Assembly: GCA_013388635.1 (NCBI GenBank)
Contig: JACAEX010000083.1
Coordinates: 1-34,305 of the forward strand
DNA length: 34,305 bases
Source: Syntrophaceae bacterium
GTDB lineage: Bacteria > Desulfobacterota > BSN033 > UBA1163
Direction: 5' to 3'
Shown here: piece by piece, positions 7,186-32,733 of the stretch
How the letters are laid out: every line of letters starts with the position of its first letter
How positions within the stretch are numbered: the stretch's first letter is position 1
Program-made: the position numbers and the translations under genes
Notes under the pieces: model-generated
Seen by the model: only the letters and a program-made list of their open reading frames with translations
Database searches by the model: none
What the model was told of the DNA's origin: nothing

Positions 7186-8685
7186 ATGAGCCGGAAGATC
7201 CGGATCTTAATGGGAGAAGAAGATCCTGAGTTTTGCCAGATGATCGAGGATTCCCTCAAGGAATCGAGAGGCCTCTATGAGATCGAGAGGGTCTCTTCAG
7301 GAGAGGAGTGTCTGAAGAGACTCCAGAGCGAGAAGTTTGACATCCTGCTTCTGGATCATCTCCTTCCTGACGGAAAAGGCCTGGACTGGCTTCGTCGTTT
7401 TAACGAGATGGGGATCGGGATCCCCACCATCTTTGTGACGGCCACAGGGGATCCACAACTTTCCATCGAGGCGATGAAGGAGGGGGTCTTTGACTACATC
7501 AACCGATCGGCAGAGTGTGCGAAGGCCTTTCCTTTTGTGGTCAATCGCGCGATTGAAGGCTACAGCCTGATGGTGGAGAAGGTGAGGCTCCAGAAGGAGT
7601 TGATCGAGACGAAGAACTTTCTCGAATCGATCGTGGAAAAGGCTGGAGATGCCATTTCAGTCGTCGATCTGGAAGGAAGGGTTCTCTATTGGAATGAAGG
7701 GGCGGAGCGGATTTATGGATATCGGAGGGAGGAGGTGATGGGAGAGAGGTTTTCCGATTTTCTTTATCCGAAAGATGAGGCTTTACGAGCAGAGGAAGAG
7801 AGATTGATGGAAGGTTTGATGGCTCGGGTGAAGAAGGGAGAGGTGGTCCCCAATGTGGAAGTGAGACGATGGACAAAAGACGGACGAGAGATCATCACGA
7901 GCATGACACTCTCTCCCCTGAGAGATTCCGAAGGGAGGATCATCGGCGCCTCTCGTATCTGTAAAGACATCACCCATTTGAAGAAAGCAGAGGAACGGTT
8001 GATCTTAGCGGAGAGGTTGTCCTCCCTGGGAGAACTGACCGCAGGCGTTGCCCATGAGCTCCGGAATCCACTGGCAGGGATCAAGATCAATACGCAGCTC
8101 CTCCTTCGGAGGAACGACCTTCCCGAGATGGAAAGGCGACTCCTTGAAAGCAGTCAGGAGGGAATCGAAAAGATTCAAAAGATCGTGGATGGCATGCTCC
8201 ATTTCGCAAAACCCAAAGCCTCCCATTTTAGAGAGGAACAGATCAATGAGGTGGTGGAGAGCAGTCTGGCCATCCTCCAAACCAAGCTGAAGAAAGGGAA
8301 TATCTCCTCTGTCTTTCAGAAGGGGGAGGGCCTGCCCCGGGTGCGGATCGATCTCCACCAGATCCAGCAGGTCTTGATCAACCTCATGCTCAATGCGATC
8401 CAGGCCATGGATGGCGGAGGGACGCTGACCATCCGGACGTTTTCAGAAGATGGAGGAGGCGTTGGAGTTGAGATCAGGGACACCGGAGTCGGGATTTCCA
8501 AGTCCAATCTGAAGAAGATATTCGATCCCTTTTTTACAACGAAATCGGAGGGCACAGGACTGGGCCTCTCCATCAGCCTGAAGATCCTCAATAACCATGG
8601 CGCAACCGTGGATGTGGACAGCCAGGAAGGAAAAGGTTCGACCTTCACCATCCATTTTCCAATCAGGGGTGATCATGCGGTTTAA
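7186..8685 (+). CDS. Hybrid sensor: receiver-PAS-histidine kinase
   Basis: 499 residues with no membrane segment, so cytoplasmic. Residues 1-~125 are a receiver domain with acidic pocket E11/E12, phosphoacceptor D57 (LLLDHLLPDG) and switch Thr in FVTATG; the conserved Lys after beta-5 appears to be Arg (YINRSAE). A PAS domain follows (~140-260, ISVVDLEGRVLYWNEGAERIYGY). The HisKA H-box is AHELRNPL with H290, then an HATPase_c domain with N-box LMLNAIQAM, G1 DTGVGIS and G2 GTGLGLS. The kinase would pass phosphate to the NtrC-type regulator encoded immediately downstream, whose start overlaps this gene by 11 bases. The ribosome binding site is GGGAAGGAGC. The N-terminal receiver suggests control by an upstream kinase not seen here. 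Confidence 0.93.
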   Translation: MSRKIRILMGEEDPEFCQMIEDSLKESRGLYEIERVSSGEECLKRLQSEKFDILLLDHLLPDGKGLDWLRRFNEMGIGIPTIFVTATGDPQLSIEAMKEGVFDYINRSAECAKAFPFVVNRAIEGYSLMVEKVRLQKELIETKNFLESIVEKAGDAISVVDLEGRVLYWNEGAERIYGYRREEVMGERFSDFLYPKDEALRAEEERLMEGLMARVKKGEVVPNVEVRRWTKDGREIITSMTLSPLRDSEGRIIGASRICKDITHLKKAEERLILAERLSSLGELTAGVAHELRNPLAGIKINTQLLLRRNDLPEMERRLLESSQEGIEKIQKIVDGMLHFAKPKASHFREEQINEVVESSLAILQTKLKKGNISSVFQKGEGLPRVRIDLHQIQQVLINLMLNAIQAMDGGGTLTIRTFSEDGGGVGVEIRDTGVGISKSNLKKIFDPFFTTKSEGTGLGLSISLKILNNHGATVDVDSQEGKGSTFTIHFPIRGDHAV

Positions 8686-10048
8686 AGTCCTGGTGATCGA
8701 TGACGAGCTTATTCTGAGGAATTCCCTGGGGGTTGCCTTAAAGACATCGGGTTACGAGGTTCTTCCTGCAGGGACCGGAGAAGAGGGATTGGAGCTTTTT
8801 CGGAAGGAGAAGCCTGATCTCGTTCTATTGGATCACTGGTTGCCGGGGATCAATGGCGACGAAGTGCTCCGGCAGATAAGAGAGGAAGATCAGGAGATCC
8901 CTGTGATTGTGATGACAGCCCAAGGTTCCATCGAATTAGCTGTCAACTCGATGAAGATGGGGGCCTTCGATTTTCTGGTCAAACCCTTTGATCTGGATCA
9001 GATGGAATCCCTCGTGAGAAAGGGCCTCGACCGGGTTCGTTTGAAGAAAGAGGTGGAATGGCTTCGCGGCCAATATCAGGAGAGATTCCGCTCGGGAGGG
9101 ATTATCGGGGTGAGCCAGAAGATGAAAGGTGTTCTGGAATTGGCCGAAAAGGTGGCACAGAGTTCTGAAACGACGGTCTTGATCGAGGGAGAGACCGGAA
9201 CAGGGAAAGAACTCCTTGCCGAATATATCCATTTTTTAAGCCCGCGTTCCTCCTTTCCCTTTGTCCCGATCAATTGCGGAGCCATCCCCAAAGACCTCTT
9301 TGAGAGCGAGCTCTTCGGCTATGAAAAGGGGGCCTTCACCGGTGCGCTCGAAAGGGGAAAGACAGGCAGGGTGGAGGCCGCAGAAAAGGGGACCCTCTTT
9401 CTGGATGAGGTGGGAGAGCTTCCCCCTTCTGCACAGGTCAAGGTCCTGAGGGTCCTGGAAGACAAGGAATATTTCAGGGTCGGAGGGATTGAGAAGAAGA
9501 GGGCCGATGTCCGGATCATCGCAGCCACGAACAAGAATTTGGAGGAAGAGGTGAGGAAAGGAAATTTTCGGGAGGACCTCTATTTCAGGCTCAATGTGAT
9601 AGGGCTCTATATCCCTCCGTTGAGGGATCGAAAGGAGGACCTTCTCCCACTTTTCAAGTTCTTCATCGATCGGTTCAACGAGCAGTTCAAAAAAGGGTTC
9701 GTCAATATCTCTAAAGAAGCAGAAGAAAAGATCCTTTCTTACCCCTGGCATGGGAATGTCAGGGAACTTCGAAATGCTGTGGAACGGATCGTCCTTTTGG
9801 AGAAGGGCGATACCATTCTCGGGAGGCATCTCTCTTTCCTTAGCGGAAGAGAGGAGAGAGAGAAAGAGGAGCTTTCCTTCAAACCCTTCCTCCCACCCCA
9901 GGGGATCGTTCTCGATCAGGTGGAGAAGGAGTATATCCTTGAAGCATTAAGAATAAAGAAAGGGAATAAGAATCAGGCAGCAAAGATCCTCGGCATTACT
10001 CGCTCTGCCCTCCTCTACCGTATGGAAAAACATGGAATCAAAATATAA
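8675..10048 (+). CDS. NtrC-family sigma54-dependent response regulator
   Basis: 457 residues. It carries a receiver (D9/D10 pocket, phosphoacceptor D53 in LVLLDHWLPG, Thr in VMTAQG, Lys in VKPFD), an AAA+ domain with Walker A GETGTGKE (~172-179), the sigma54-contacting GAFTGA loop (~219-224), Walker B LFLDEVGELP and the arginine-finger region FREDLYFRLNVI, and a C-terminal Fis-type HTH (KGNKNQAAKILGITRSALLYRM). It should hydrolyse ATP to open sigma54 promoters. The frame is open upstream to 8597, but ATG 8675 follows AGGGGTGATC and starts directly at beta-strand 1 of the receiver. It is translationally coupled to the kinase before it. The sigma54 promoter at 10307-10322, with a dyad at 10080-10097, is a likely target. 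Confidence 0.95.
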   Translation: MRFKVLVIDDELILRNSLGVALKTSGYEVLPAGTGEEGLELFRKEKPDLVLLDHWLPGINGDEVLRQIREEDQEIPVIVMTAQGSIELAVNSMKMGAFDFLVKPFDLDQMESLVRKGLDRVRLKKEVEWLRGQYQERFRSGGIIGVSQKMKGVLELAEKVAQSSETTVLIEGETGTGKELLAEYIHFLSPRSSFPFVPINCGAIPKDLFESELFGYEKGAFTGALERGKTGRVEAAEKGTLFLDEVGELPPSAQVKVLRVLEDKEYFRVGGIEKKRADVRIIAATNKNLEEEVRKGNFREDLYFRLNVIGLYIPPLRDRKEDLLPLFKFFIDRFNEQFKKGFVNISKEAEEKILSYPWHGNVRELRNAVERIVLLEKGDTILGRHLSFLSGREEREKEELSFKPFLPPQGIVLDQVEKEYILEALRIKKGNKNQAAKILGITRSALLYRMEKHGIKI

Positions 10049-10079
10049 TCTTTGAAAGGAAGGGGAGGATTGTCCGATT

Positions 10080-10107
10080 TCAGACAGGGCTATCTGAGTT
10101 CAGACAG
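10080..10107 (+). promoter_or_regulatory. Putative enhancer-binding site (dyad plus extra half-site)
   Basis: TCAGACAG-GG-CTATCTGA (10080-10097) is an 18-base dyad with one mismatch between the arms. A second TTCAGACAG half-site at 10099-10107 repeats the first (10079-10087) with a 20-base period. It lies ~220 bases upstream of the -24/-12 promoter, a normal distance for an NtrC-type activator, and just behind the gene for one. Binding is inferred. Confidence 0.5.
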
Positions 10108-10306
10108 ATCAAGAATTCTTCAGTCATTTCGTCAGGCTATTTCCTTTCTACCCTTTTCTCCGTCTGTTTTCAAACCTACTTCCATTCGCTCGCTTTTGAA
10201 AAGTGAAGTGATGATCCCTTAGGAGCGATTTCTATGCCGAGTATAATTCCTTGAAGTGAAAGAAGAATTTTAAAGAAAGATCTTTCCTATCTTCGGCATG
10301 CATCAC

Positions 10307-10322
10307 TGGCACGCTCCTTGCT
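10307..10322 (+). promoter_or_regulatory. Sigma54 (-24/-12) promoter
   Basis: TGGCAC-GCTCC-TTGCT has both invariant elements (GG and GC) with exact spacing. The predicted transcript start is near 10332, only a few bases before the receiver gene's ATG at 10339. An upstream TTG at 10318 that is in frame with this gene is part of the -12 element and cannot be the start in this transcript. Confidence 0.85.
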
Positions 10323-10338
10323 GTTGCGTTCACTGGCG

Positions 10339-10695
10339 ATGAGAGTCTTGATCATTGAACAGGAGAAGACCATCCGACAATCCCTTTTCCATCTGATGGA
10401 GAATCATAAGGACTTTGAGGTCTTCTCTGCCCCTTCCTTTCAAGAAGGCCTTTCTCTTTTTCAAACCATGCCTTTTGATATCGTCCTTTGTGGAGATCGT
10501 CTTCCTGATGGAGATGGTTTGGAGATGCTGAAAGAGCTGGTTAAGAAGAATCCAAAGATCATCTCTGTCCTGATGACCGTTCACGGTGATGAGTTATTGA
10601 GAGAGAAAGCGATGAGGGCTGGGATTCGAGGTTATCTCGAAAAACCTTTTGATCTGAAACAACTCGAAGAGGCTATAGGGTTTAAACCCTTCTGA
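10339..10695 (+). CDS. Stand-alone atypical receiver protein (phosphoacceptor Asp replaced by Gly)
   Basis: 118 residues, a single receiver domain with no output domain. Aligned with the receiver of the kinase at 7186, FDIVLCGDRLPDGDGLEML places Gly52 where the phosphoacceptor Asp should be, with an Asp one position later. The acidic pocket, normally DD, is E7-Q8. The switch Thr (LMTVHGD) and the conserved Lys (LEKPFD) remain. It may therefore be a pseudo-receiver working by protein contact or another ligand rather than standard phosphorylation. ATG 10339 is preferred because the upstream TTG lies in the sigma54 promoter; there is no ribosome binding site and the leader would be about seven bases. 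A later start would remove beta-strand 1. Its expression is probably controlled by the NtrC-type protein upstream. Confidence 0.85.
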   Translation: MRVLIIEQEKTIRQSLFHLMENHKDFEVFSAPSFQEGLSLFQTMPFDIVLCGDRLPDGDGLEMLKELVKKNPKIISVLMTVHGDELLREKAMRAGIRGYLEKPFDLKQLEEAIGFKPF

Positions 10696-10750: not shown

Positions 10751-10844
10751 TGTCATTCCGGTGAAGGCCGGAATCCAGAACCTATTGAAATCACTGGACT
10801 CCTGCTGGAGTTTACCCCGTACTTAATACGGGGCAGGAGTGACG
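10751..10844. repeat. Dispersed intergenic palindromic repeat element
   Basis: The ~94-base unit starts TGTCATTCCGGTGAAGGCCGG and ends GGGCAGGAGTGACG, so its ends are imperfect inverted repeats. It contains an inner hairpin CCCCGTA-CTTAA-TACGGGG (10815-10833). Elements with GTCATTCC ends and nested hairpins are familiar multicopy intergenic repeats in proteobacteria. Only one full copy is visible here, with a possible fragment near 2155. Confidence 0.65.
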
Positions 10845-10950: not shown

Positions 10951-11385
10951 ATGAGGAAGAGGATTCTGGTTTGGATGTTGTCGTTTGTGCTCATCTTTTC
11001 GATGCTCAGTCTGGCCCTTGCTCAGCCGCCCGTGGTCAAGGAGATGGTGGCAAAGGCCAAGGCAGCGGTCAAAACGGTCTCCGCAGCTGATGTGAAGGCC
11101 GCCATCGATAAAAAGGAGAACGCGGTCATCCTCGATGTGAGAGATCCGAATGAGTACGCAGCAGGCCATCTTCCTGGAGCGATCAATGTCTCCAGGGGAA
11201 CGCTGGAGTTTGTGATCTGGACTAAGGTTCCGGATCAGAACGCCAAGATTTATGTCTACTGCAAGACAGCAGGACGATCGGCCTTGGCGACCAAGACCCT
11301 GAACGATTTGGGCTATAAGAATGCTGTGTTGATGGATGCCCAGTTTGAAGACTGGATCAAGGCCGGTTATCCTGTGGTGAGGTAG
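10951..11385 (+). CDS. Exported single-domain rhodanese (sulfurtransferase)
   Basis: 144 residues. An N-terminal signal peptide (MRKRILVWMLSFVLIFSMLSLALA) sends the protein to the periplasm. The rest is one rhodanese domain: VILDVRDPNEYAAGHLPGAINV, and the active-site loop YCKTAGRS with catalytic C104, which carries a persulfide. The ATG follows AAAGGAGGTGAGAAGTG; GTG three bases upstream is an alternative. It lies directly before a molybdopterin oxidoreductase locus of the polysulfide/thiosulfate reductase type, so it may deliver or accept sulfane sulfur for that complex; this link is inferred. A hairpin with a T-run just downstream suggests that part of its transcript ends before the oxidoreductase genes. 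Confidence 0.92.
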   Translation: MRKRILVWMLSFVLIFSMLSLALAQPPVVKEMVAKAKAAVKTVSAADVKAAIDKKENAVILDVRDPNEYAAGHLPGAINVSRGTLEFVIWTKVPDQNAKIYVYCKTAGRSALATKTLNDLGYKNAVLMDAQFEDWIKAGYPVVR

Positions 11386-11391
11386 TTTGGA

Positions 11392-11432
11392 GGGGGTGGG
11401 CATTTGAACTTGGGTGCCCATCTCCTATTTTT
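11392..11432 (+). terminator. Hairpin with T-run between rhodanese and oxidoreductase genes
   Basis: GGGGGTGGGCA (11392-11402) can pair with TGCCCATCTCC (11415-11425), including two G-U pairs, with a 12-base loop and TATTTTT directly after. It looks like an intrinsic terminator or attenuator. It also argues against the GTG at 11414, which lies at its loop, as the start of the next gene. Confidence 0.55.
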
Positions 11433-11449
11433 GGCCAGCGATGGGGAGA

Positions 11450-13642
11450 ATGGAACCAAAGGGTTTTGAGATTTCGAGGCGGGCTTTCCTAAAGGCGACT
11501 GCAGCCGGGGTCGGGATTCTTTCTTTGGGCCATGAGCTGCTTGACTTTGGGACGTGGGCACGTGGCCAGGCCGATTCGCCGGTTGTGCGCATCCCCACGC
11601 TCTGCAACGGCTGCGGGAACCGATGTGCCATATTCGCCTACGTAAAGAATGGTAGACTCTGGAAGATCGAGGGAAATCCTGAAGCCAATGGCAATCTTGG
11701 TGTGATCTGTCCGAAAGGCCATGGCTACCTTCACGAGCTCTACAATCCGAGTCGACTCAAAGGGCCTCTGAAGAGGGTTGGAGATCGTTTTGAACCGATC
11801 TCCTGGGACCAGGCTTACAAAGAGATCGCTCAAAAGATCAATCTCATTCTGATGGAGAATGGACCGCAGAGCATCTTCTGGGTCAACTATCCTCAGCCCA
11901 ATCATCTCTATGCCCTGAGGTTGATGCACGCCCTGGGCAGCCCCCATTACTTCACGCATGGGTCCACCTGCTATACGGCGAGAAATGCGGGCTGGGTCTA
12001 CACGGTCGGCGAGCTTCCCTCCAACGATCTTTCCGATTCTCGATACATCATGATCATCGGCCGCAACCCTGCGGGAGGGATCGACCTCGGGCAGATGAAG
12101 AGGATCGTGGAGGCGAAGGCCAAGGGTGCCAAGTTGGTGGTTGTGGATCCGAGGCATAGCGAAACGGCCATCCTTGCAGATGAATGGCTTCCGATCAAAC
12201 CAGGAACGGATCTGGCTCTGCTTCTGGCGATGATTCATGTGATGGTAAAAGAGGGGCTTTACGATAAGAGATTTGTGATGGAGAGAGCGGTTGGCTTTGA
12301 ACAGCTGGAAGACGAGATGGTCAACTATCCTCCAGAGTGGGCTGAGAGGATTTGTGAGATCCCGGCGAAGACGATCTTCAAGATCACCCGGGAGATGGCC
12401 CAGGCAAGGCCTCAGGCCCTGATCCATCGAGGCTACCACGGAGCGTTTGGGGCCCAATATCTCAACAGTTTTCAAACCGCTCGGGCTGCTGCCATTGCCA
12501 ACAGCCTCTTGGGCAACATTAATCGGAAAGGTGGGATCTACTTTCCAAAGACCGCCCAGTTAGGAGAGCTTCAACCGAAACATCCAGCCCCTGAGCTTCC
12601 GAAGGTGGGAAAGGCCGACGGGACCGGAGTTCCCGGCAGGTATCCCTTAGGAAGTTATGGAGATGGGATTGCCCATGCCATCCCTGAGCTGGCTTTGCGG
12701 GGTGAGTTGAAGGCAGGATTTGTCTACCATCATAATCCACTCCGAACCAATCCGAATCCCAAGCGGGTGATCGCCGGGTATAAGAAGCTCGATCTTTTGG
12801 TCGTCATCGACACCGTGCTTTCTGAGACGGCCTCGATCGCTCACTATGTTTTGCCCGAGTCGTTCTATCTGGAGCGGGATGAGGCTGTGGACACAAAACA
12901 CAGTGGCAAACGAGCCCAGGTCAGTATCCAGCAGCAGGTGGTCAAACCGATGTATGATACAAGGCCTGGGACCCAGATCATCATCGAGCTGGCGAGGCAC
13001 CTGGGGGTAGGAAGGTATTTCAATTTCGACATCGAGGAGGCCAACCGTCTGAGGCTGAAGCCCCTGGGCGTGACGTTAGAGGAGTTAAAGGCGAAAGGGA
13101 TTCTCTTCGTGGGCAAGGAGTGGAAGGAGGGGTTCGATAAACTCCAGACCCCCTCCGGAAAAGTTGAAATCTATTCAAAGACCTTGGAACAGCTTGGATT
13201 CCCGGCCATTCCTCGATGGGAAGATCCCTTCGTCTCTCCAGATCCGAATGACCCCCACTCCTTCCGATTGCTCCATGGAAAGCAGGCGATTCACACCCAT
13301 TCCATGACCGCAAACCAGCCTGTGCTGATGGCTCTCAGTCATCGCTACGACATGATCCGCCTCTGGATGAATCAGGAGAGGGGGGAGCGACTGGGGCTGA
13401 AAGATGGAGATTGGGTTCAGATCAAGTCCATGGTCGGAGAGGGAAGGATTCGAGTCCGGCTGACCCAAGGCATCCATCCCTCCTGCGTCTGGCTTCCAAG
13501 CGGTTACGGAATTTTTTCAAAACATTTAAAAACAGCTTATGATATTGGCCTTTCCTATAACGATTTTCTTCCAACCTATTTTGATCCGACGGTAGGGCAT
13601 GTGATGGCCTCGGAGATCATCGTGAAGGTGAGCAAAGCATAA
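11450..13642 (+). CDS. Molybdopterin oxidoreductase catalytic subunit, polysulfide/thiosulfate reductase-like
   Basis: 730 residues from ATG 11450 (ATG 11441 and GTG 11414 are in-frame alternatives). The N-terminus has a Tat signal, SRRAFLKA followed by a hydrophobic stretch, so it is exported folded with its cofactor. The [4Fe-4S] ligands are CNGCGNRC and a later CPKG. GSTCYTARNAGW contains the probable molybdenum-ligand Cys. The C-terminal molydop-binding domain includes HSMTANQPVLMALS and DGDWVQIKS. The set of four-cluster ferredoxin, TorD, NrfD anchor and neighbouring rhodanese favours reduction (or oxidation) of a sulfur compound such as polysulfide, thiosulfate or tetrathionate; the substrate cannot be fixed from sequence. 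The stop codon lies at the start of an intergenic word-repeat tract. Confidence 0.9.
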   Translation: MEPKGFEISRRAFLKATAAGVGILSLGHELLDFGTWARGQADSPVVRIPTLCNGCGNRCAIFAYVKNGRLWKIEGNPEANGNLGVICPKGHGYLHELYNPSRLKGPLKRVGDRFEPISWDQAYKEIAQKINLILMENGPQSIFWVNYPQPNHLYALRLMHALGSPHYFTHGSTCYTARNAGWVYTVGELPSNDLSDSRYIMIIGRNPAGGIDLGQMKRIVEAKAKGAKLVVVDPRHSETAILADEWLPIKPGTDLALLLAMIHVMVKEGLYDKRFVMERAVGFEQLEDEMVNYPPEWAERICEIPAKTIFKITREMAQARPQALIHRGYHGAFGAQYLNSFQTARAAAIANSLLGNINRKGGIYFPKTAQLGELQPKHPAPELPKVGKADGTGVPGRYPLGSYGDGIAHAIPELALRGELKAGFVYHHNPLRTNPNPKRVIAGYKKLDLLVVIDTVLSETASIAHYVLPESFYLERDEAVDTKHSGKRAQVSIQQQVVKPMYDTRPGTQIIIELARHLGVGRYFNFDIEEANRLRLKPLGVTLEELKAKGILFVGKEWKEGFDKLQTPSGKVEIYSKTLEQLGFPAIPRWEDPFVSPDPNDPHSFRLLHGKQAIHTHSMTANQPVLMALSHRYDMIRLWMNQERGERLGLKDGDWVQIKSMVGEGRIRVRLTQGIHPSCVWLPSGYGIFSKHLKTAYDIGLSYNDFLPTYFDPTVGHVMASEIIVKVSKA

Positions 13643-13722: not shown

Positions 13723-13733
13723 CGGTGTGAGTG

Positions 13734-14273
13734 ATGGCTCGATACGGAATGGTCATCGATGAGACGAAGTGCGTGGGTTGCCATGCGTGCCGGGTGGCCT
13801 GCCATAACCAGAACAATCTCGATGAGAAAGAGGCCTATAATCACCTGGAGGAGCGGGAGTACGGGAGCTTTCCCAACTACACGCGTGAATTCATGCCTGT
13901 CCAGTGCCAGCACTGCGATAATCCTCCCTGCGTGAAGGTCTGTCCCACAGGGGCCTCCCATAAGAGAAAGGACGGGGTGGTTCTGGTCGACAAGGATAGA
14001 TGCATCGGCTGCAAATATTGTATTGCGGCCTGTCCTTACAATGTGAGGATTATCAAGAAAGAGGGCTACATCGAGAAGTGTCGGTTCTGCATCGAATTTG
14101 TTGAAAAAGGGGGAACGCCAGCCTGTGTGACAACTTGTATGACCGGGGTCCGGATGTTTGGTGACCTCGACGATCCAAACAGTGAGATTTCGAAGCTCAT
14201 CATCAAACATAAGCTGAAGCAGTTTAAGGCAGAGCTGAACACCAAGCCCAGGATTTACTACAGGAAAGGATGA
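13734..14273 (+). CDS. Four-cluster [4Fe-4S] ferredoxin subunit (PhsB/PsrB/TtrB type)
   Basis: 179 residues. Four cysteine groups are visible: CVGCHACRVAC, CQHCDNPPCVKVCPTG, CIGCKYCIAACPY and CRFC...CVTTC, the pattern of electron-transfer subunits that link the molybdopterin subunit to an NrfD-type membrane protein. It has no signal of its own and would be carried out with the Tat-exported partner. ATG 13734 is chosen over GTG 13731; the upstream GGTGTGAGTG is a weak ribosome binding site. Its stop overlaps the start of the torD-like gene (ATGA), indicating coupled translation. Confidence 0.95.
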   Translation: MARYGMVIDETKCVGCHACRVACHNQNNLDEKEAYNHLEEREYGSFPNYTREFMPVQCQHCDNPPCVKVCPTGASHKRKDGVVLVDKDRCIGCKYCIAACPYNVRIIKKEGYIEKCRFCIEFVEKGGTPACVTTCMTGVRMFGDLDDPNSEISKLIIKHKLKQFKAELNTKPRIYYRKG

Positions 14274-14926
14274 CGGAGATGTTCAGGGAGGAAAAGGAGT
14301 CTGTTTCCAGAATCCTATCATGCCTTCTTTCTTCTCCGGATGAAGGGATGGCGGAAGAGATCTATCGGGGCACCCTCTACTCATTCTTTAGACCTCAGGT
14401 CCAGTCGTGGGGAGGAGAGATTGGGATTCTGAAAGGGTTTCGGGATGGCGAAGCTCCGGAAGTCCTTTCAAAGAACCTGAAGAAGGAATATGATCGCCTC
14501 TTTTCCGACTTTGGAAGTGAGAAGATCTCGCTCGTTGAATCCTTTTATAAACCCTGGACCCAGGATCCTGACTGTTCCCTTTCCTTTGCAGCTGAAAAAG
14601 GTCTGATAATGGGAGATTCCGCTCTCCACCTCTCCGCTCTCTATCAGAAATGCGGCCTGGAAATCGGAGAGGGATTTCAGGGGATGCCCGATCATCTGAT
14701 CCTTGAATTGGAATTCTTAGGCTATCTTTATCGGTGGGCGAGCGACAGGGAGATCAAGATGTTCATCAAGGATCATCTCGACTGGATCCCCCTTCTTAAG
14801 GTAGAGTTGGAGAGGGCTTCGGCCCATCCCTTTTATCGGACTGTCCTTGAGGTGCTGGATCTGTTTCTCAGGACCGAAAGGAGGAGATTGGAGAAGGAGA
14901 GCGATGGAGAGGAGAAGATTTGTTGA
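14270..14926 (+). CDS. TorD-family molybdoenzyme chaperone
   Basis: 218 residues, all-helical. TorD/DmsD proteins bind the Tat signal of a molybdoenzyme and hold it until the cofactor is inserted. Family marks are EYDRLFSDFG, ESFYKPW and MPDHLILELEFLGYLY. It overlaps the ferredoxin gene by ATGA and the following lipoprotein gene by 23 bases, so it belongs to this operon and its client is almost certainly the molybdopterin subunit at 11450. Confidence 0.9.
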   Translation: MTEMFREEKESVSRILSCLLSSPDEGMAEEIYRGTLYSFFRPQVQSWGGEIGILKGFRDGEAPEVLSKNLKKEYDRLFSDFGSEKISLVESFYKPWTQDPDCSLSFAAEKGLIMGDSALHLSALYQKCGLEIGEGFQGMPDHLILELEFLGYLYRWASDREIKMFIKDHLDWIPLLKVELERASAHPFYRTVLEVLDLFLRTERRRLEKESDGEEKIC

Positions 14927-15161
14927 GAACTTCGTGATGGCCGTGACGCTGGCAGGATTACTCCTGCTAACCGGTTGTGCGAAGAAGGAAAGAGAGGCAG
15001 GATTTGGAAATCAGGACAGGCTCTGGCAACTGATCCGTGCCGAAAGCAAGACCGAGGAACCTGTGGATCTGGTATACGCTAAAGACACACCGGTCCTCTA
15101 CCGGGACGCCTCAATGGGAAAGGCTGACCCCTCTTTCGTTCCCAAGATCGGAGGAGGCTGA
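14904..15161 (+). CDS. Small lipoprotein of unknown function in the oxidoreductase operon
   Basis: 85 residues. MERRRFVENF is followed by a hydrophobic segment and the lipobox LLTG-C25, so the mature protein is a ~60-residue lipoprotein. The mature part is polar, with no domain I recognise (DRLWQLIRAESKT, DTPVLYRDASMGKADPSF). The frame is open to 14847, but ATG 14904 follows GGAGAAGGAGAGCG and puts the lipobox at the right distance. It sits between the chaperone and NrfD genes, where an additional subunit that tethers or stabilises the complex at the membrane is plausible but unproven. Confidence 0.82.
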   Translation: MERRRFVENFVMAVTLAGLLLLTGCAKKEREAGFGNQDRLWQLIRAESKTEEPVDLVYAKDTPVLYRDASMGKADPSFVPKIGGG

Positions 15162-15172
15162 AGCTAAAGAGG

Positions 15173-15191
15173 GATTCGTCGTTGACGAATC
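15173..15191 (+). other. Intercistronic perfect hairpin
   Basis: GATTCGTC-GTT-GACGAATC is a perfect eight-base-pair stem with a three-base loop between the lipoprotein stop and the NrfD gene. No T-run follows, so RNA stabilisation or processing is more likely than termination. Confidence 0.5.
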
Positions 15192-15239: not shown

Positions 15240-16229
15240 ATGGAAGGACAGATACAGGTGATCTGGGGTTGGATCGTGGCCGTCGACCTCTTCGCAGCGG
15301 GATTGAGCGCAGGGGCCTTCATCATCTCTGCAACGGCCTACTTCCTCGGCAAGGATAGGTACGAGCCCATGACGAGGATCGGTGCGTATATCGCCCCTTT
15401 CCCTGTGATCGTCGGAATCCTCTGTCTTATCTTCGACCTCGAGAGGCCTCATCTCTTCTGGAGATTGTTCCTGACCTTTCAACCCAACTCGGTGATGTCG
15501 TTCGGATCATGGCTTCTTCTCTTCTTTTCGATATTTAGCCTGGCGCACTTCTACCTCTGGCTCCCGGAGCGGTTCGATTATTTGAGGATCGTTTCTGCCA
15601 TCCGATCAAACCGATTTCTGAGCCGGTTTAAGGGCGACAATCTCGCAAATATACGGGGACTGGTTGCGGGATTTGGCATCCCCATTTCCATTGGAGTGGG
15701 GATCTACACGGGCGTGCTTTTGGGCGCCCTCACCGCCAGGCCATTCTGGAATAACCCGATGCTTCCGATGCTCTTCTTGATCTCCGCTATGATGACAGGA
15801 TCTGCGGCGATCTGTTTTGTAGGCTGTTTCGTTAAGGGATTTCGAGGGATGAGCCGGGAGAACGTGAACACGAATAAGTTCATGATCCATTCCATCGACT
15901 TCACCCTTATGGTCTTTTCGATCATCGCTGTCTTTCTCTTCATCCTCGGTCTGTACGTATCGCCCAGAAGCTCGGTTGCCGCAGTCCACCTGATCATGGG
16001 AGGGGAATTCACGTTTCTCTTCTGGTTCTTCGTGGTGGGGATAGGGATCCTCGTCCCCCTCTCCCTCGAGATCTATGAATTGATCCCCCACTACATTCAA
16101 CAGGTGGAACTGAGGGAGCACAATCCCTGGATCTCGGGCCTCATCACCACCTCTGTCCTCGTCGGTGGTTTCGCCATGCGATATATCGTCATCTATGCAG
16201 GCCAGATGGCAAGGATCATCACCTCTTAA
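15240..16229 (+). CDS. NrfD/PsrC-type membrane anchor and quinone-interacting subunit
   Basis: 329 residues with about eight to nine hydrophobic helices. The family pattern is visible: an N-terminal WGWIVAVDLFAAGLSAGAFI helix (shown as its 20-residue core), then DLERPHLFWR after helix two and GVLLGALTARPFWNNPMLPM mid-protein. These proteins exchange electrons between quinones and a periplasmic ferredoxin subunit. ATG follows AGGGGGTTTATC. It is the last gene of the sulfur-type oxidoreductase operon and is convergent with comEC; the gap after it holds only a weak GATTCT/AGAATC dyad at 16231-16251. Confidence 0.93.
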   Translation: MEGQIQVIWGWIVAVDLFAAGLSAGAFIISATAYFLGKDRYEPMTRIGAYIAPFPVIVGILCLIFDLERPHLFWRLFLTFQPNSVMSFGSWLLLFFSIFSLAHFYLWLPERFDYLRIVSAIRSNRFLSRFKGDNLANIRGLVAGFGIPISIGVGIYTGVLLGALTARPFWNNPMLPMLFLISAMMTGSAAICFVGCFVKGFRGMSRENVNTNKFMIHSIDFTLMVFSIIAVFLFILGLYVSPRSSVAAVHLIMGGEFTFLFWFFVVGIGILVPLSLEIYELIPHYIQQVELREHNPWISGLITTSVLVGGFAMRYIVIYAGQMARIITS

Positions 16230-26877: not shown

Positions 26878-26950
26878 GGGCCCATAGCTCAGCTGGAAGA
26901 GCCACCGGCTCATAACCGGTAGGTCCCTGGTTCGAACCCAGGTGGGCCCA
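26878..26950 (+). tRNA. tRNA with CAT anticodon (elongator Met, or Ile2 after lysidine modification)
   Basis: A full cloverleaf is visible: acceptor GGGCCCA/TGGGCCC, D-stem GCTC/GAGC, anticodon stem ACCGG/CCGGT with loop CTCATAA (anticodon CAT at 26911-26913), T-stem CCTGG/CCAGG with loop TTCGAAC. The 3' end is ACCT, so CCA is not fully encoded. It is not the initiator tRNA, because position 1 pairs with 72 and the anticodon stem lacks three G-C pairs next to the loop. Met versus Ile2 identity cannot be settled by eye. Confidence 0.93.
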
Positions 26951-27822: not shown

Positions 27823-28313
27823 TCGATGTGAAAGAGCGGGGTTCTGCGGAGAAGGATCTTCAGCTGATCCTTTATATCGACGGAGCCTCGAAAGGCAACC
27901 CAGGAGAAGCAGGAGCCGGGGTCTGGATGACGGATGGATCAGGAAGGAAATTGATGGAGATAAGCCGGTATCTGGGCCATAAGACCAATAACGAGGCGGA
28001 GTACTGGGCTCTTCTTTTGGGGTTGAGGGAGGCAAAGCGATTGGGCGGAAGGTCTGTTCGCATCCTTACTGATTCGGAATTGATCGAGAGGCAGGTGAGG
28101 GGGCTCTACCGGGTGAAGAGTACGAACTTAAAGGGTCTCCATAGAGCGGTGACTCAGGAATTGAAGGAATTTTCATCATCTGAGATCAGATCCATTCCGA
28201 GAGAAGAGAACCGGGAGGCAGATCGTTTGGCCAATCGGGCGATTGAGAGAAGGATTGTAAAGAAGAAGGGAGAAGGGGGGATTCGAAGGGGAAGAGATGG
28301 CCGCTCCTCTTAA
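27819..28313 (+). CDS. rnhA: Ribonuclease HI-type protein
   Basis: 164 residues. It cleaves RNA in RNA-DNA hybrids. The catalytic acids fit D21 (YIDGASKGNPG), E61 (NNEAEYWAL), D85 (LTDSEL) and D136 (ENREADRLAN). It lacks the basic protrusion of the E. coli enzyme and resembles the shorter RNase HI form. It overlaps the zinc-ribbon gene by four bases. The last ~12 codons, a Gly/Arg-rich tail beyond the conserved fold, are also the 5' strand of RNase P RNA helix P1. Confidence 0.9.
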   Translation: MIDVKERGSAEKDLQLILYIDGASKGNPGEAGAGVWMTDGSGRKLMEISRYLGHKTNNEAEYWALLLGLREAKRLGGRSVRILTDSELIERQVRGLYRVKSTNLKGLHRAVTQELKEFSSSEIRSIPREENREADRLANRAIERRIVKKKGEGGIRRGRDGRSS

Positions 28314-28738
28314 GAGCCCATCACCGGGTCTTGAGAGGGGAGGAAAGTCCGAGCTCCAGAGGGCAGGGTGGTCCGTAACACGGACTGCCCCGCCTCGTAA
28401 GGGGCGGGGTAAGGAAAGTGCCACAGAAAAGATACCGTTCCGACGAAAGTCGGAATAAGGGTGAAAAGGCGAGGTAAGAGCTCACCAGTACCCCGAGCGA
28501 TCGGGGTAGCTTGGTAAACCCCACCCGGAGCAAGACCAAATAGGTCCCGCTCTCCGCCAAAGGCGGAGCGAGAAGGGCCCATTCGAATCTGTTCGGACAA
28601 CAAGTAGGACAGAGGCGGGACGGGTCAGGTCGCTTGAGGCTCTGAGCAATCAGAGTCCCAGATAAATGGCCATCGTTCCGATCCTGCTGAAGGCAGGAGA
28701 GGGATACAGAACTCGGCTTATGGTCCCCTTCGATCCCC
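28277..28738 (+). ncRNA. rnpB: RNase P RNA (bacterial type A)
   Basis: The catalytic RNA that matures tRNA 5' ends. Conserved blocks are GAGGAAAGTCCGAGCTCC and AGGGCAGGGTG-like sequence near 28340-28370, AGGGTGAAAAGGCGAGGTAA (28456-28475), AAACCCCACCCGGAGCAAG near 28515, CAAATAGG, and ATACAGAACTCGGCTTAT near 28705-28721. The ends are set by helix P1: 28277-28292 pairs with 28724-28738 over fifteen pairs with one bulged T, followed by a T-run that would terminate transcription. The 5' end therefore lies inside the last codons of rnhA. It is longer than typical because variable loops hold extra hairpins (28390-28410, 28492-28510, 28550-28570). Confidence 0.92.
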
Positions 28739-31947: not shown

Positions 31948-32409
31948 ATGGCTGAAAAACTGATCTGCCAGAACCGGAAGGCCTGGCATAACTATTTTAT
32001 CGATGACAAGTACGAAGCCGGGATCTCCCTGCTGGGAACAGAGGTGAAGTCCCTCCGGGAGGGGAGGGCTAACCTCAGCGATAGCTATGGGAAGATCAAG
32101 AACGGGGAGGTCTTTCTCATCGATGCCCATATCAGCCCTTACAGCCATGGCAATCGATTGAATCACGATCCGCTCAGGCCGAGAAAGCTCCTCCTCCACA
32201 AAAGGGAGATCCGGCGCCTCATCGGAAAAGTCCAGGAGAAGGGATTTACGCTCATCCCCCTCCGCCTCTACTTTTCTGATGGAAAGGCCAAGGTGGAGTT
32301 GGGTTTGGCAAAGGGAAAGAAGCTCTTTGATAAGCGAGAGACGCTTAAACGAAAGACGATGGAAAGGGATATGGAAAGGGGGCGAAAAGGGTTCGACGGG
32401 GATCGTTGA
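31948..32409 (+). CDS. smpB: SsrA-binding protein SmpB
   Basis: 153 residues. SmpB binds tmRNA and brings it to stalled ribosomes. Marks are [47 protein letters not shown] and [11 protein letters not shown], with a basic C-terminal tail that enters the empty mRNA channel. The ribosome binding site is weak (TAAGAG). The last eleven codons ([10 protein letters not shown] end) are also the 5' end of ssrA, an overlap of 32 bases. Confidence 0.97.
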
Positions 32410-32733
32410 CGTCAGGGCTGCATGCCGAGGTCCCATTGGCTCGTTAAACAAATGGGGTTTAAACATAATCGCAGCCAACTACGATTATGCCCTGGCTGCC
32501 TAAGCGCGGCCAGCGTCCCTTCCGTTCTCTCCTGTAGGGCGGAATGTGGATGTCAGAAAAACAGGATAGTTCCTCTCCGACGCTTATAGGAGGGGAGCGA
32601 ATCTTTATAAGCTAGTTCTTCCAGAATCCTGTCTGTGGGAGGTTGGGAGGACGAATTCAAAACACAGACTATGTATGTAGATGCTCTGGCCGAAGGTTCT
32701 CGGACGCGGGTTCGATTCCCGCCGCCTCCACCA
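32378..32733 (+). ncRNA. ssrA: Transfer-messenger RNA (tmRNA)
   Basis: 356 bases. The acceptor pairs GGGGGCG (5') with CGCCTCC (3') and keeps the G3-U wobble used by alanyl-tRNA synthetase; the 3' CCA is encoded. GGGTTCGACGGGG and GCATGCCGAGG near the 5' end and GGTTCGATTCCCGCC in the T-arm are diagnostic. The resume codon is GCA at 32471 after ATAATC, and the tag reads AANYDYALAA, ending at TAA 32501-32503. The region after the tag should hold the pseudoknots. The 5' end lies inside smpB. Confidence 0.96.
32700..32733 (+). other. Possible integrase attachment site (ssrA 3' end)
   Basis: The T-arm/acceptor end of ssrA is a classic target of tyrosine recombinases. Directly after it the composition becomes AT-rich and a tyrosine recombinase gene lies ~1.2 kb away. 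The second attachment copy would be beyond the window, so this is inference. Confidence 0.4.

Follow-up and report, generated by a model that had tools for sequence, protein, structure and literature searches.

A conserved sigma54-type control region precedes a pseudo-receiver gene and a putative sulfur-respiratory operon in a Syntrophaceae bacterium

We consider it likely that the region between the NtrC-type activator gene and the receiver gene in this stretch of DNA contains the enhancer and the promoter for a respiratory operon dependent on sigma54. This operon would be under a dedicated two-component system, and its first product would modulate its own control. What the sequence and its conservation show is the promoter and the operators, the order of the genes, that the receiver has lost its phosphoacceptor, and that it co-occurs with the activator. 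The control region is of an ordinary kind and unusually well conserved, and it has two uncommon passengers. Tentatively, we suggest that the operon may bring its own brake, a pseudo-receiver antikinase that acts on the kinase-activator pair, as well as an undescribed Tat selenoprotein with a penultimate Sec behind a glycine hinge.

The window (that is, the whole stretch of 34,305 nucleotides that was analysed) is contig C41 of a 3.4-Mb genome, G000, which consists of 106 contigs and is 95% complete. Among the relatives that have a name, the nearest are 'Deltaproteobacteria', 'Syntrophaceae' and 'Syntrophobacterales' bacteria assembled from metagenomes. The window also contains an RNase P RNA (28284-28736), a tmRNA (32378-32733) and a tRNA (26878-26950). 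The features of the locus are collected in Table 1.

Table 1. Features of the two-component system, the control region and the operon, in order of their position in the window.
Feature	Position	Strand	Basis
Sensor histidine kinase: N-terminal receiver, PAS, HisKA, HATPase	7186..8685	+	Pfam; orthologues 73-80% in relatives; alignment
NtrC-type sigma54 activator: canonical receiver (DD, D, T, K), AAA+ with GAFTGA, Fis-type HTH	8675..10048	+	Pfam, alignment
Operator 1, 16-bp palindrome TGTCCGATTTCAGACA	10071-10086	+	Position conserved in relatives
Operator 2, 16-bp palindrome TATCTGAGTTCAGACA; distance to operator 1, 20 bp	10091-10106	+	Position conserved in relatives
Operator 3, weaker, CGTCTGTTTTCAAACC, 2 mismatches to TGTYTGNNNNCARACA	10161-10176	+	Conserved 69-71 bp spacing in most relatives
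Sigma54 -24/-12 promoter TGGCACGCTCCTTGCT	10307-10322	+	Exact, conserved in relatives
Single-domain pseudo-receiver, 118 aa	10339..10695	+	Pfam PF00072, alignment, structure model
Repeat element, ends GTCATTCC ... GGAGTGAC, between receiver and rhodanese	10752..10843	+	Absent at that place in relatives
Exported rhodanese-like protein, strong Shine-Dalgarno AAAGGAGGTGA	10951..11385	+	Pfam PF00581
Molybdopterin oxidoreductase, PsrA/PhsA-like catalytic subunit	11414..13642	+	Domain families; best solved relative 2vpw, E 5.8e-105
4Fe-4S ferredoxin subunit (PsrB/NrfC-like)	13731..14273	+	Domain families
TorD/NarJ-type chaperone	14270..14926	+	PF02613
Small Tat-signal lipoprotein, predicted selenoprotein: ...GGG-UGA(15159-15161)-Ser-TAA	14904..15167	+	GG-UGA-AGY-stop in 10/10 loci
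SECIS-like hairpin GATTCGTC-GTT-GACGAATC, loop 19 nt past UGA	15173..15191	+	Covarying, conserved
NrfD/PsrC-like membrane subunit; ends the operon, followed by a gene on the other strand	15240..16229	+	Domain families

The initial annotation of this DNA had pointed to an exact TGGCAC-N5-TTGC at 10307-10321, and this site is borne out: it is the sole exact match to that pattern in the window, with its GG and GC 10 bp apart, and a -24/-12 box lies directly upstream of the receiver start in all 13 comparable loci. Twelve of these loci match 9/9 core positions and one matches 8/9. When the upstream regions are shuffled with their dinucleotides preserved, no more than 0.15% of the shuffles have a box in their final 60 nt. 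Few stretches are strictly conserved when 11 upstream regions are aligned, and the box is one of them. Furthermore, TGGCAC-N5-TTGCW has 14 exact matches genome-wide, compared with 0 for a control with the reversed pattern, and therefore -24/-12 sites of this kind are not a product of chance.

The C of the -12 element is 17 nt away from the start codon in nine loci, 14, 16 and 18 nt in three, and 35 nt in G002; between the -12 element and the start codon (10322-10339 in the window, together with the corresponding stretch in relatives) the sequence varies and the distance is near-constant. Transcripts from sigma54 promoters usually start 12 nt past the C of the -12 element. The predicted transcript start is at about 10333, 6 nt ahead of the ATG of the receiver gene, which would leave a leader of 6 nt and no Shine-Dalgarno sequence. 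The idea that such a near-leaderless start is unique was dropped, since two of the nine other exact sites in the genome sit 12-13 nt before an ATG (L175, L177); it is thus a habit of the lineage. At another exact site (G000:C68:41672-42099, L176) a 229-aa receiver protein with a canonical acidic pair starts 62 nt past the -24/-12 site.

The three operators are situated between 139 and 229 bp ahead of the -24 element; their unit is a 16-bp palindrome with the consensus TGTYTG-N4-CARACA. An 18-base dyad, TCAGACAGGGCTATCTGA (10080-10097), and an additional half-site had been described here before. The repeats are real, although the dyad is the wrong unit, being composed of the right half of operator 1 and the left half of operator 2; the two tandem palindromes had thus been seen in part, and the third operator at 10161-10176 had been missed. 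Operators 1 and 2 are the only matches to TGTYTGANNTCARACA with at most one mismatch in the 3.4-Mb genome. Note that this pattern has been drawn partly from this very locus, so that the independent evidence for the operators is their conservation. Aligning the region across relatives, a check that the initial annotation had suggested, reveals that not only the promoter box but, in most relatives, also the operators and their spacing are conserved: the starts of operators 1 and 2 are 19 bp apart (20 in the window), and operator 3 follows another 69-71 bp on (about 70 bp downstream of operator 2 in the window). A clear third operator is missing in G002 and JACAEW, and in G020 and G001 the sequence at this place is truncated or masked. 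In G012 the operator spacing is kept although the receiver and the operon are about 20 kb away from the activator gene, which argues that it is the promoter that the operators accompany, rather than the end of the activator gene. A broad operator pattern (at most one mismatch) gave 22/28 in G000 and 15/20 for a reversed control; since this is only weakly above the control, no wider regulon can be claimed. One tandem pair near a gene start, C14:5687/5707, was set aside: it consists of TGTCTGCCGTCAGGCAGGCC twice, as a perfect tandem duplication, with no -24/-12 box shown there.

The two genes upstream, which overlap by 11 bp, encode a receiver-PAS kinase and an NtrC-type activator, and judging by their Pfam domains they are just as they had been described. 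Orthologues of the activator occur in 12 relatives with 78-83% identity. Its receiver is canonical in all of them according to the alignment, and with the receiver Asp, the GAFTGA motif in the AAA+ domain and the Fis-type HTH the protein has the domain features of an NtrC-type enhancer-binding protein. The N-terminal receiver of the kinase (7186-7560) retains its Asp; the usual Lys and one part of the acidic pair are gone from it, and this holds in every relative. The activator gene of G004 (L064:8473-9790) and the kinase gene of G005 (L052:9593-11088) are split over two frames, due to either real decay or an assembly error.

A sigma54 domain family is present in 21 of the 23 genomes of the class; we found these families neither in the G000 assembly nor in G005. 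However, G000 is also without orthologues of the rpoN neighbours lptB, hpf and a kdsD-like gene (in a comparison with the relative G006:C99, L203). Since the whole adjoining lptB-rpoN-hpf block is missing, and since 21 of the 23 genomes do have a sigma54 gene, we take the absence of rpoN from G000, which speaks against the sigma54 reading, as a probable assembly gap.

The receiver had been regarded as the only downstream gene within reach of the promoter. This view did not hold, since a respiratory operon comes next. In nearly every relative (also in L082 and L088) the receiver gene is the first, followed by genes for a rhodanese, a PsrA/PhsA-like molybdoenzyme, a ferredoxin, a TorD/NarJ-type chaperone, a lipoprotein and NrfD. 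Both ends of the gap between receiver and rhodanese are covered in 10 relatives, and in 8 of them it measures 6-35 bp (the others being 87 bp in G013 and 20 bp in the shortest-stop reading of G016); AAAGGAGGTGA precedes the rhodanese gene in relatives as well. Because the gap is short in most relatives, the receiver gene belongs to the operon. The same gap measures 255 bp in the window, since the repeat element (10752-10843) and further sequence are inserted there, an insertion that the relatives do not have. A simple scan of this insert found no plus-strand terminator; the insertion could weaken read-through to the rhodanese gene in the window. Sequences related to the end of the repeat element are found in related genomes close to other genes of the operon (L051, L055, L082).

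The nearest solved relative of the molybdoenzyme is the Thermus reductase 2vpw, and its best NCBIfam model is PhsA, with a score below the equivalog cut-off of that model. The subunit set of PsrABC/PhsABC, that is, a catalytic subunit, a ferredoxin and NrfD, is present. We infer that the substrate is probably a sulfur compound, as in reductases of the polysulfide or thiosulfate type. The locus shares with PsrABC/PhsABC the three types of subunits as well as the nearest solved structure, 2vpw, and differs in that a single sigma54 operon adds an exported rhodanese, a small predicted-Sec lipoprotein and a pseudo-receiver. A literature search on polysulfide reductase, rhodanese and sigma54 jointly returned nothing. 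A sigma54-dependent two-component system that adjoins the sulfur-metabolism operon under its control is known from Acidithiobacillus caldus (TspS-TspR/sox-II; PMC6335251), and, in a comparison of the operator frame only, the TspR operator TGTCCCAAATGGGACA (PMC6335251) shares TGTC-N8-GACA with operator 1. On the other hand, the operon controlled by TspS-TspR is the oxidative sox operon, and no pseudo-receiver is described for that system.

Judged by its sequence, the product of the 10339 gene is a conserved pseudo-receiver. In the window it has Gly52 at the phosphoacceptor position and Glu7-Gln8 in place of the acidic pair, with Thr80 and Lys102 kept; in all 11 aligned orthologues there is a Gly at the phosphoacceptor position (VLCG), and the acidic pair is replaced by Glu-Gln, Glu-Lys or Glu-Asn. 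Since both the phosphoacceptor Asp and the acidic pair have been lost in all orthologues, an action that is based on phosphoryl transfer, for example as a phosphate sink, is excluded by known chemistry. A structure model (pLDDT 90.8) has the receiver fold. It matches 1zy2, the receiver of NtrC1 (Z 19.8, rmsd 1.5 over 115 residues), a match that shows the fold alone and does not tell pseudo-receivers from other receivers. Like the aspartate-less receivers and pseudo-receivers described before (PMC4395418, PMC12632262), the protein combines the receiver fold with a loss of key phosphorylation residues. Unlike them, it is free-standing and is encoded by the first gene of the putative target operon of its own regulators; furthermore, while they often lose the Pro at D+4 and the Gly at D+8, here the Pro is kept and so, nearly always, is the Gly. 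An origin of the pseudo-receiver by duplication of the activator or kinase receiver was dropped, as the protein is 34% identical to the former (rank 9 in the genome) and 30% to the latter, and other paralogues are closer. Since it is not especially similar to the receiver of the activator, its binding to the same kinase is conjectural.

Next, we asked which genes the pseudo-receiver goes with. Among 23 genomes of the class there are orthologues of the activator in 13 and of the receiver in 12, and the receiver never occurs without the activator (Fisher p about 1e-5, a value uncorrected for kinship, which inflates the counts in such a set of few metagenome-assembled genomes). G005 has the activator, a kinase gene in two frames and neither receiver nor enzyme. 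In G002 the activator, the receiver, the promoter and operators 1 and 2 are kept, there is no enzyme, and a convergent gene follows behind the receiver. Conversely, the enzyme operon of G003 stands behind an unrelated gene, and activator, receiver, operators and -24/-12 box are all missing. Because of the dissociations in G002 and G003, the receiver can be said to follow the regulators rather than the enzyme; each of these exceptions is one, possibly incomplete, genome.

In the reading that we prefer, the kinase would phosphorylate the activator, which would bind to the two tandem palindromes and to the third one and from there drive RNA polymerase-sigma54 at the promoter. The transcript would begin about 6 nt before the receiver gene and run through the genes of the rhodanese, the Psr/Phs-type molybdoenzyme, the ferredoxin, the chaperone, the small lipoprotein and NrfD. 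As the operon turns on, the unphosphorylated pseudo-receiver would then bind to the kinase (or to the activator) and damp the signal, as FixT and Osp do. Who binds what in this scheme, as well as the co-transcription of the genes in the window itself, is predicted from the sequence and its conservation; for the activator and the operators, the prediction draws on their being conserved and lost together.

FixT inhibits the autophosphorylation of FixL without being phosphorylated; it has no acidic pair and is induced by the system that it inhibits (PMC7078487). Osp, which is also without an acidic pair and is also controlled by the system that it inhibits, acts on CckA in the same way (PMC9430884). 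The protein studied here is likewise a single-domain receiver without the acidic pair, and its gene is in the putative target operon of its own system, as judged from the promoter and the operators. Our best guess, on which we would put roughly even confidence, is therefore by analogy that it may be an antikinase similar to FixT and Osp that binds to this kinase and gives negative feedback. There are differences to both precedents. The FixL-FixJ-FixT system of Caulobacter and Sinorhizobium (PMC7078487) also has a system-induced single-domain receiver which misses the acidic pair and is not phosphorylated (as is predicted here), whereas FixJ is a NarL-type regulator and the activator here is of the NtrC type. 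Moreover, the FixT of Caulobacter has a 4-Cys Fe-S motif and the pseudo-receiver has one invariant Cys, and for this reason we do not file it as a FixT, just as a protein that may work alike. Osp of Rhodobacter sphaeroides (PMC9430884) resembles it as a receiver-like single-domain protein that is without catalytic residues and under the control of its own system, a control that is presumed here. However, Osp keeps the Asp and is without the Lys, while the pseudo-receiver is without the Asp and keeps the Lys, and the kinase and the output are others.

The evidence given so far bears on four other explanations. That the -24/-12 match and the operators are there by chance and that transcription of the operon starts at a sigma70-type promoter would be conceivable given that weaker matches are common (23 sites with at most two mismatches in the 34-kb window); the exact match, its conservation in 13/13 loci, the constant distance to the start codon and the excess over the reversed control make this extremely improbable, and a simple scan of the region found no plus-strand sigma70-like site. 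The initial annotation had seen in the locus a closed cascade, in which the activator has no other target than a stand-alone receiver, and this receiver could act back on the kinase; it might do so as a phosphate sink or a competitor. The long gap behind the receiver in the window fits this idea, and so does G002, which looks receiver-only since the enzyme genes are missing there and a convergent gene comes next. Nevertheless, the rhodanese and Psr/Phs genes lie close behind the receiver in nearly all relatives, and a phosphate sink needs an Asp where all orthologues have a Gly, so that we consider such a cascade very unlikely. The activator, the sigma54 control and the conserved operators and promoter remain from it, the receiver as the only output does not, given the respiratory operon in relatives, and an induced receiver that acts back on the kinase may stand in a modified, non-phosphorylated form with FixT and Osp as precedents.

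Potentially, the pseudo-receiver could also serve the enzyme, with a receiver fold just by coincidence; it would then be a partner of the reductase in assembly, targeting or redox reactions. It is, after all, encoded by the first gene of the operon and is linked to the rhodanese in all relatives but one; with a receiver but no enzyme in G002 and an enzyme operon but no receiver in G003 (one genome each, where gaps in metagenome-assembled genomes are possible), we hold this to be somewhat unlikely. A little less plausible still is that, rather than inhibiting the kinase, the protein competes at the dimer interface of the activator receiver, or senses sulfide or redox state through Cys51 beside the vacated phosphorylation site. 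Cys51 is the sole invariant Cys in the 11 orthologues, yet only 1 of 40 other receivers sampled has a Cys at this position, and redox-switched pseudo-receivers are known (RitR, HP1021; PMC12632262). On the other hand, Cys51 sits in strand 3, where it is probably buried, and its invariance may be structural.

Apart from the pseudo-receiver with its putative antikinase role, the other uncommon passenger is the lipoprotein gene of 85 codons between the chaperone and NrfD genes. Its sequence makes us quite confident that it encodes a real selenoprotein, a predicted new family with a penultimate Sec. The gene ends with GG-UGA-AGC/AGT-stop in 10/10 loci, including the divergent copy of G010, and the second stop is TAA, TGA or TAG. 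It is followed by a SECIS-like hairpin of 7-8 bp, the loop of which lies 16-19 nt past the UGA and has a G in the first two loop positions, again in 10/10 loci. The published bacterial SECIS model has a loop of 3-9 nt, a G in the first two loop positions, a distance of 16-37 nt from the UGA and an MFE of at most -7.5. All ten hairpins agree with it in loop, G and spacing, and most agree in energy, with a few short ones at -5.9 to -6.8. Both sides of the stem change at two pairs, and 95.8% of the cells are paired compared with at most 51% when slid, a modest covariation signal from nine related sequences. We were not able to find the hairpin motif anywhere else among the loci compared. The genome carries a tRNA-Sec (L244:605-695, minus strand) and a SelA gene (L244:3034-4482, minus strand), both on contig C20. 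Scans with Pfam and NCBIfam found no family for the lipoprotein, and no Cys homologues of it were seen among the loci compared. UGA makes up 43% of the stops in the genome. Less probably, the UGA of the lipoprotein gene is a normal stop with an unrelated hairpin behind it. As a selenoprotein, the lipoprotein could use its Sec tail as a swinging sulfur carrier between the rhodanese and the reductase; the penultimate Cys arm of DsrC offers a comparison.

In summary, the locus is a clean natural case in which comparative genomics suffices to read the lost phosphorylation site of a pseudo-receiver together with its promoter and its partner system, and this in a sigma54 setting, compared with the alphaproteobacterial setting of earlier cases. 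The near-constant predicted leader of 6 nt behind the -24/-12 box would offer an easy test case for a sigma54 message that is nearly leaderless. If the antikinase reading is true, feedback by non-phosphorylated receivers would be wider than FixT and Osp. If the selenoprotein is real, the prokaryotic selenoproteome would gain a family, and selenium chemistry would have a place in the dissimilatory sulfur reduction of uncultured Desulfobacterota-like bacteria.
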